Of a stretch of 64,000 bases of DNA, positions 25,899 through 27,848 are shown piece after piece. Position numbers and translations under genes: made by a program. This DNA is from an uncultured Clostridia bacterium (GTDB lineage Bacteria; Bacillota; Clostridia; Christensenellales; Aristaeellaceae), in contig CAMVAJ010000001.1 of assembly GCA_947165425.1 (NCBI GenBank), forward strand, positions 89,663 to 153,662, in the 5' to 3' direction. Every line of letters starts with the position of its first letter. The first letter of the stretch is position 1. The notes beneath the pieces were generated by a model. That model was not told the DNA's origin. It saw only the letters and a program-made list of their open reading frames with translations, and ran no database searches.

Positions 25899-26117
25899 TC
25901 AACAAATGATAAAATAGCACAAGCAGCGCGGATTGTCAAGGGCTTATGCGTATTTTGAAAATAAAAACCAACCTGACGGCGGCTTGTTTTTTCAGTAAAA
26001 TTCACGAGGAGACACTTGTGTTTTAAAGCAATGTTTGTTATACTTCATTTAGCGTATGAGCTGAAAAGGGGTTCGCGAGGCGATTTCGTTGCGCCCCGCC
26101 GGAGGAGGATTCATCAG

Positions 26118-27848
26118 ATGGCTGATTTTAATAGCATGACCGTATTGGAACTGCGAAAATATGCGCGGGAGCACGGCGTCACCATAGGCGCAGGCAAAAG
26201 CAAGGCGGACATTGTCGCGCTTTTAATGGACGCGGAAGGCGTGCAGTCTGCGGAGCCGGCGAATGACAGCCCTGCCGAAGCGGCGCCGGCGCAGGAGCCG
26301 GTCAAACGCGCCGGCGCAAGCTTTATGGCGGCCTGGCACAACCCGGCAGGACGGTATGCCGCTCCCCAGCGTGGCGCAGGCGGGAACCGGCCTCAACGGC
26401 CAACCTTTTCAACCGGGCTGACGGAGCATGCGAATAAGCAGCGTATGCCCGCCTCTCCCCGCTTTGGCCCGGGCGCTTTGGCTGCCAATGAAAACACCAC
26501 CGAGGATACCTATACGCCCGCACCGCGGACGGTACGGAGCTGGGGACCCGACGAGAGCGAGATCGAGTCCCCTCAGATGGGCGTTTCCGCTACTCCGCCG
26601 GTGCTTGAACGAACGACACAGCAGGCGCCTGATCGCTATCCTTCGCCTGTCCGGGGCGACAATGCTCCCCGGCGGGAAGATCAGCAGGATCTATTTACCC
26701 CCGAGGAGCTGAAGGACGGCCTCGGCATCATGGAGATGCACCCGGATGGGTACGCCTTCCTCCGCGTGAATGGGCTTAGTCCCTCGGCCAACGATATCTA
26801 CATTGCCCCTGCGCAGATTAAGCGCTATCAGCTTCGCCCCGGCGATCTGATCAGCGGCAAGGTGCGTCCTCAGCGGGAGGGAGACCGTTTTGCCTCCATG
26901 ATGACGGTTCAGGCGGTCAACCAGATCCCGGTTGAATCGCTGGCGTCCCGCCCCGCGTTTGACAGCATGACGGCAATCTATCCGAATCGTCCCATTAATC
27001 TTACCCCCTCGGACAGCCGTCAGCGCAACACGCGAATTCTGGATATGGTCGCTCCGATCGGCTTCGGCCAGCGCGCGCTGGTGCTCTGCCAGCCTGACAC
27101 GGGCAAGGCGCCTTTCCTGAGAGACTTGGCCAATACGATTGTTGCGAACCATCCCAACACGAAGGTGTTCATTGTGCTCCTGGACGAGAATCCGGAGGAC
27201 GTGACGCTTTTCCGGGATACGGCCCAGTGCCCCATTTACGCCACGACCTTCGACCAGCTGCCTGAAAACCACCTCCGTCTGAGCGAGCTTGCGCTTGAAC
27301 GCGCGGAGCGCCTTGTGGAGGAAGGCAAGGACGTCGTGCTGATGGTGGACAGTCTGACAAGACTGGCCAAGAGCTACTCCATCGCTGCGGCACAGCAGGG
27401 AAAGGCAACGCCGGGCGCAATCAACCCGTCCAGTCTCTACAGAGCACGCCGTCTTTTCGGAGCGGCACGGGCGCTGCGTGAAGGCGGAAGCCTGACCATC
27501 CTGGGATGCATCAATGTGACCGCGCCCGGAAAACAGGATAACAGCATCATCGAGGAATTCCGGGAGGCGGCCAACTGCGTAATCACGCTCGACAGTACGC
27601 TGGCCCGCGCCGGAGTGAGGCCGACCATTTCCTTCCACCAGAGCGGAACCAAACGTTTCGACGGCTTTGTGAGCGATACCCGGAAGGAAGGACTGCGGAT
27701 CCTCCGCAAAGAATTCAGCGGGCTCACAGACGCGGCCGCGATCAAGCAGCTGAACGAGCTGGCAAACCTGGTTCCGGATAACGACACGCTGTTTGACCGG
27801 CTTCCGGAGTGGATGGCGATGCTGGGCGGCGTGAAGGAGACCAACTGA
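26118..27848 (+). CDS. rho: Transcription termination factor Rho homologue with divergent ATPase motifs and long disordered insertion
   Basis: Rho_N (TVLELRKYAREHG), RNA-binding core (GIMEMHPDGYAFLRVN...NDIYIAPAQIKRYQLRPGDLISGKVRP), ATPase domain (VVLMVDSLTRLAKSY, RRLFGAARALREGGSLTI). Confidence 0.9.
   Translation: MADFNSMTVLELRKYAREHGVTIGAGKSKADIVALLMDAEGVQSAEPANDSPAEAAPAQEPVKRAGASFMAAWHNPAGRYAAPQRGAGGNRPQRPTFSTGLTEHANKQRMPASPRFGPGALAANENTTEDTYTPAPRTVRSWGPDESEIESPQMGVSATPPVLERTTQQAPDRYPSPVRGDNAPRREDQQDLFTPEELKDGLGIMEMHPDGYAFLRVNGLSPSANDIYIAPAQIKRYQLRPGDLISGKVRPQREGDRFASMMTVQAVNQIPVESLASRPAFDSMTAIYPNRPINLTPSDSRQRNTRILDMVAPIGFGQRALVLCQPDTGKAPFLRDLANTIVANHPNTKVFIVLLDENPEDVTLFRDTAQCPIYATTFDQLPENHLRLSELALERAERLVEEGKDVVLMVDSLTRLAKSYSIAAAQQGKATPGAINPSSLYRARRLFGAARALREGGSLTILGCINVTAPGKQDNSIIEEFREAANCVITLDSTLARAGVRPTISFHQSGTKRFDGFVSDTRKEGLRILRKEFSGLTDAAAIKQLNELANLVPDNDTLFDRLPEWMAMLGGVKETN

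Follow-up and report, generated by a model that had tools for sequence, protein, structure and literature searches.

The rho gene of the window

The window, the whole stretch of 64,000 nucleotides analyzed here, carries on its forward strand an ORF with an ATG start (26118–27848) that codes a 576-residue Rho homolog. Note that a TTG codon is found upstream in frame at position 26016 and that initiation there would add 34 residues. The protein scores 349 bits with the NF006886 model, above its cut-off of 315, and 345 bits with TIGR00767, well below the cut-off of 509. Its score with NF041509 (paralog_Rho2, a short Rho paralog) is 279.6 bits and falls below the curated cut-off of 628. The Pfam matches are Rho_RNA_bind (PF07497, 1.7e-24) and ATP-synt_ab, with no Rho_N match at 1e-3. 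The amino terminus features a Rho_N-like segment (26118–26240; MTVLELRKYAREHGV...GKSKADIVALL) that is common to relatives and agrees with the starts of their ORFs. It is followed by a low-complexity linker of ~150 residues (26241–26714), presumed to be disordered, whose length varies widely among relatives. The linker carries the short motif AWHNP (26331–26345). Motifs of this type are present in 73 of 81 altered Rhos of the family, in 9 of its 23 intact ones and in none of 58 Rhos from outside the family, an association that follows the tree, the counts not being independent. The motif is a lead for a putative binding partner. Note that some canonical Rhos of the family (e.g., L020, L011, L017) have very long amino-terminal extensions, their ORFs coding ~900–1110 residues, with visible repeats in L020. 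The core begins with the primary RNA-binding (OB) domain (26715–26925), where F64, R66 and Y80 are kept while F62 and Y110 are replaced by Y and F, respectively (the numbering is that of E. coli Rho throughout, whose sequence from NC_000913 was the alignment reference). The fold of the core is predicted to be intact: its AlphaFold2 model, built with 35 relatives, has a pLDDT of 89.5 and a pTM of 0.88, and the closest structure in the PDB is that of E. coli Rho (8q3p; TM 0.91, 34% identity).

The gene is flanked upstream by tRNA-Arg and lexA and downstream by khpA and ffh, all on the opposite strand (the neighbor names given here are a reading of the sequences, not annotation). The neighbors in the window's genus differ from those in two canonical (L176, L169) and three altered (L078, L101, L104) relatives, in which rho lies downstream of the same genes. 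These include an mtaB/miaB-like gene, a HIT-family gene and a conserved gene of ~340 codons directly upstream of rho. Their presence in canonical and altered relatives alike points to vertical inheritance.

The second canonical rho that the initial annotation proposed to look for was not found in the whole genome (2.57 Mb, 126 contigs, 97.8% complete). Two further weak matches cover the ATPase core only and are adjacent on one contig with rotary-ATPase-type genes. The relatives also have one rho each by profile search. An artefact, be it an assembly error, contamination or a canonical second rho absent from the bin, is hardly credible. The bin is fragmented, has 3.8% contamination and includes a contig (C96 of G000, the window genome) that codes a second full NusG (L297), foreign-looking in sequence compared with the NusG typical of the genus, which is coded on C73 (L322), and that is probably a contaminant. 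Against this, rho sits on a long contig, groups with the Rhos of the window's genus, and independent assemblies from this and from neighboring genera show the same substitution pattern. Moreover, assembly error is made very unlikely by the sister genus g52, where altered Rhos (GKA, E211V, R212T, R353G, R366K) are coded in two single-contig genomes of 3.39 and 3.56 Mb.

Substitutions at the ATP site

The P-loop CQPDTGKA (27087–27110) differs from that of E. coli Rho by the exchange of K181 for D (27096–27098) and of T185 for A (27108–27110), so that the Walker A signature GK[TS] reads GKA, while K184 is kept (27105–27107). K181 and T185 contact the phosphates of the nucleotide, T185 contacting the beta-phosphate (PMC11829017). 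In the next conserved segment (27186–27191) the catalytic glutamate E211 is present (27186–27188) and is followed by N (27189–27191) in place of the arginine valve R212 (roles known from published structures, PMC8828861). The Walker B aspartate D265 (27348–27350) and R269 are kept. The Q-loop (AAQQGKATPGAIN; 27387–27425) retains K283 and has A for G288. The following segment (27513–27533) combines the R-loop, with K326 kept, and the change of L320, a residue of the bicyclomycin pocket (PMC8828861), to N. R353, which forms with W381 the switch between open and closed rings (PMC11829017), is replaced by G (27612–27614) and W381 by R, and the arginine finger R366 (PMC11829017) is a K (27651–27653). 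The initial annotation had described a Rho homolog with ATPase-site substitutions, and every residue that it named is borne out by the alignment (K181D, T185A, R212N, R353G, R366K; K184 and E211 kept). It had also held Walker B and the RNA-binding core to be well conserved; the Walker B aspartate and the RNA-binding core are kept. Changes outside its list are L320N, P297A, R272K, R347S, G339A and W381R.

These positions were compared between 72 canonical Rhos (from relatives of the same order, Atribacterota, Bacteroidota, Armatimonadota, an actinobacterium and E. coli) and 44 members of the altered clade. Ninety-eight core columns are invariant in the canonical set (at least 97% identity of the residue), of which the clade keeps 77% on average. 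Retention is 0% for K181 and R212 (0/44 each), L320, G288, G339 and P297. It is 2% for R272, 25% for R366, 39% for E211 and 52% for T185. K184 (95%), D265 (100%) and P180, E214, R66, F64, D78, G310 and G311 (98–100%) are in turn highly retained. Because the changed positions are mostly near-invariant in the canonical Rhos and assemblies made independently show the pattern again, the substitutions of the window Rho exceed, as judged by alignment, the ordinary variation whose demonstration would have spoken against the initial annotation. Read with the published residue roles (PMC8828861, PMC11829017), these retention figures place the losses mainly at the ATP site and at the elements that control it, with the RNA-binding face and many residues of the fold kept.

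The window Rho shares with the Rhos of E. coli, T. maritima and M. tuberculosis the OB domain, the RecA core, the Q- and R-loops, the predicted fold and a single-copy chromosomal gene. It departs from them at the arginine valve, the Walker A threonine, K181, the R353/W381 switch and the arginine finger, and some of its relatives additionally lack the catalytic glutamate.

Repeated residue loss and retention of the gene

The history of these changes was followed by parsimony on a maximum-likelihood tree of 113 Rhos, calculated by a quick search with the trait columns left out. The minimum numbers of state changes, which are counted without direction, are 15 for GK[TS], 9 for E211, 14 for R366, 4 for R212, 5 for R353 and 1 for D265. 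In the window's genus, GKA is found in G000, G003, G005 and G007, and G010 has E211A and R366H. Their congeners G004, G009 and G011 retain GKT, E211 and R366, and their Rhos may be active. Other combinations are GKR with E211V (L101) and GKA with E211V and R366K (L082). The P-loop is strongly divergent in G001 (PPETPCTD), G008 (PETHHRAF) and G021 (PSRMNENE), and the P-loop lysine itself is gone in G001, G008 and genus g8. Read from alignment and tree, the loss of ATPase residues in the family is clade-wide, stepwise and repeated. Outside the family, a full-length Rho from another family of the order (L056, G043) has the P-loop DPT, E211Q and R366M, apparently an independent loss.

The gene itself is kept. 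Profile searches detect Rho in 187 of 201 family genomes and in every one of the 104 with a completeness of 90% or more and a contamination of 5% or less. The named loci of the clade are from Clostridia MAGs, many of them from rumen and gut. In genus g8 a Rho match is found in 8 of 8 genomes searched, at only 1e-27 to 1e-48; one of these very divergent proteins (L055, G018) has an open frame and the AWHNP motif. A relative within the order (G047, 96% complete) gives no Rho match, possibly a true absence.

Selection on the ATPase domain was estimated from pairs with dS of 0.1–1, distant pairs being saturated and set aside. Close g52-type pairs (G193, G213, G101, G164, L082, L092, L102, L088) have dN of 0.003–0.061 and dS of 0.17–0.91. 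The resulting dN/dS values are 0.010–0.069, in Rhos that lack E211, R353 and R366 and mostly also T185. The g52-type Rhos, which represent the most strongly altered sister group, are under strong purifying selection and are not decaying. More distant pairs without E211 give ~0.13 to 0.38, with dS near saturation. In the window's genus, where few values are usable (0.20–0.44), Rho constraint looks weaker than in g52. Median Rho identity there is 0.52, against 0.77 for UvrA, 0.80 for SecA and 0.74 for PolC, the corresponding values in canonical genomes being 0.66, 0.71, 0.66 and 0.58. Rho thus evolves fast in the window's genus, by relaxed or altered selection.

This rate agrees with the view that Rho is under relaxed selection and heading for loss, as in other Bacillota without rho. 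The absence of rho from some Bacilli lineages (PMC13323073) and the disappearance of even the P-loop lysine in G001, G008 and genus g8 fit the same view. It is nevertheless improbable, since all high-quality family genomes keep rho, reading frames are intact, dN/dS is 0.01–0.07 in sister lineages that retain even fewer of the catalytic residues, and loss is focused on the ATP site with D265 and the RNA-binding residues staying. The contention of the initial annotation that the substitutions are not random decay is upheld by the predicted fold, the kept RNA-binding core and the very strong purifying selection in the sister lineage. A gene that is retained while its motor residues are repeatedly lost is an experiment of nature on which parts of Rho are required.

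Possible functions of the altered Rho

In E. coli Rho, E211A abolishes hydrolysis and leaves ATP binding and oligomerization intact; the equivalent E386A of M. tuberculosis Rho, likewise dead for hydrolysis, keeps ATP and RNA binding and hexamers and loses unwinding and transcript release, and termination requires ATP hydrolysis in both species (PMC4499133). By analogy with these mutants, the g52-type Rhos are expected to form rings that bind RNA but have no motor. The same residue is lost in many relatives of the window Rho. Unlike the hydrolysis-dead laboratory mutants, however, the altered state is here natural, repeated and fixed in species, and the window Rho itself keeps this glutamate.

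The account that we consider moderately probable is that the window Rho is a fold-intact RNA-binding protein whose motor has been dismantled and in which another function is kept. The inherited single-copy rho of the family would have had its ATP-hydrolysis machinery taken apart stepwise, the rest of the protein being conserved. Loss of R212, of K181 (the lysine contacting the gamma-phosphate) and of the R353 ring switch would have come first and clade-wide. The Walker A threonine (A in the window), the catalytic glutamate (V, M, F, A or Q elsewhere) and the arginine finger (K, H) would then have been lost lineage by lineage. The altered Rho would still form a ring and bind pyrimidine-rich RNA through the primary site. 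ATP would be hydrolyzed very slowly or not at all and perhaps be bound as a fixed, structural ligand, which fits the retention of K184 and D265. RecA-type hexamer subunits that bind nucleotide without hydrolysis are known in the non-catalytic alpha subunits of F1-ATPase (PF00006 fold). Window-type Rhos may do likewise; F1, in contrast, alternates alpha with catalytic beta subunits, and Rho here is a single type of subunit.

The slow or non-hydrolyzing Rho suggested by the initial annotation stands as the best reading, in the form of a prediction. The window protein is expected to have strongly reduced hydrolysis, perhaps not zero, because K184, E211, D265 and R269 are kept. The same four residues, together with the conservative change of R366 to K, are compatible with a Rho that is still active through a rewired site, in which the lysine would serve as finger, substitutes would replace valve and switch, and RNA-dependent hydrolysis would proceed slowly via E211, K184 and D265. 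The congeners with GKT, E211 and R366 are in line with it, and the clade-wide losses of R212, K181 and R353 may precede the loss of activity. We regard this alternative as rather unlikely, given that T185A removes the beta-phosphate contact (PMC11829017) and that relatives lacking E211, T185 and R366 together are strongly selected, hydrolysis apparently not being what is kept.

How Rho ends transcription is debated between an ATP motor that pulls RNA from RNA polymerase and inactivation of the polymerase by Rho binding, and a stand-by model features polymerase-bound Rho that acts allosterically (PMC8964686). The dismantled-motor account would give the altered Rho the role of a non-translocating clamp on nascent RNA or of an RNA-polymerase-bound allosteric stand-by factor, with the amino-terminal extension and its AWHNP motif as docking site. 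A further, tentative step is that strong selection maintains this lineage without ATP hydrolysis as such a static clamp or allosteric factor in dozens of species from the gut, where it possibly still ends transcription motor-free. No firm biochemical precedent was found for a terminator that dispenses with hydrolysis, and the open-access literature searched yielded no report of Rho lineages that are ATPase-deficient by nature. "Rho present" in a genome survey need not equal Rho-dependent termination.

Bacilli without rho have a relaxed purine bias of their genes (PMC13323073). Sense-strand purine content was therefore used as a gauge of Rho surveillance, with conflicting results. Its mean is 0.520 in 14 intact and 0.504 in 49 altered genomes (p 0.0006, uncorrected for relatedness). 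Matched orthologs differ little between intact and altered genomes (polC, p 0.08; secA, p 0.09; uvrA, p 0.84), and the two single-contig altered genomes have values of 0.523 and 0.528, above one intact genome at 0.511. The purine bias of the family is weak from the outset.

The KOW stretch FGR-TPVEL of NusG reads GREQLVDL or similar in the window's genus (L313–L322). We take this stretch to be part of the contact surface with Rho and S10. This gives no ground for a general co-evolution of Rho and NusG, other altered genera keeping a more usual KOW form.

A changed response of the clade to bicyclomycin, also raised by the initial annotation, is plausible in view of the clade-wide loss of R212, K181 and L320 and of the resistance of M. 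tuberculosis Rho, which is accounted for by a Met in the place of L320 (PMC8828861). The M. tuberculosis protein, naturally resistant, resembles the window Rho in the change at this position and in having an amino-terminal insertion, but its catalytic residues are intact and it works as a true motor (PMC8828861, PMC4499133). Residues of the bicyclomycin site can vanish across whole lineages.
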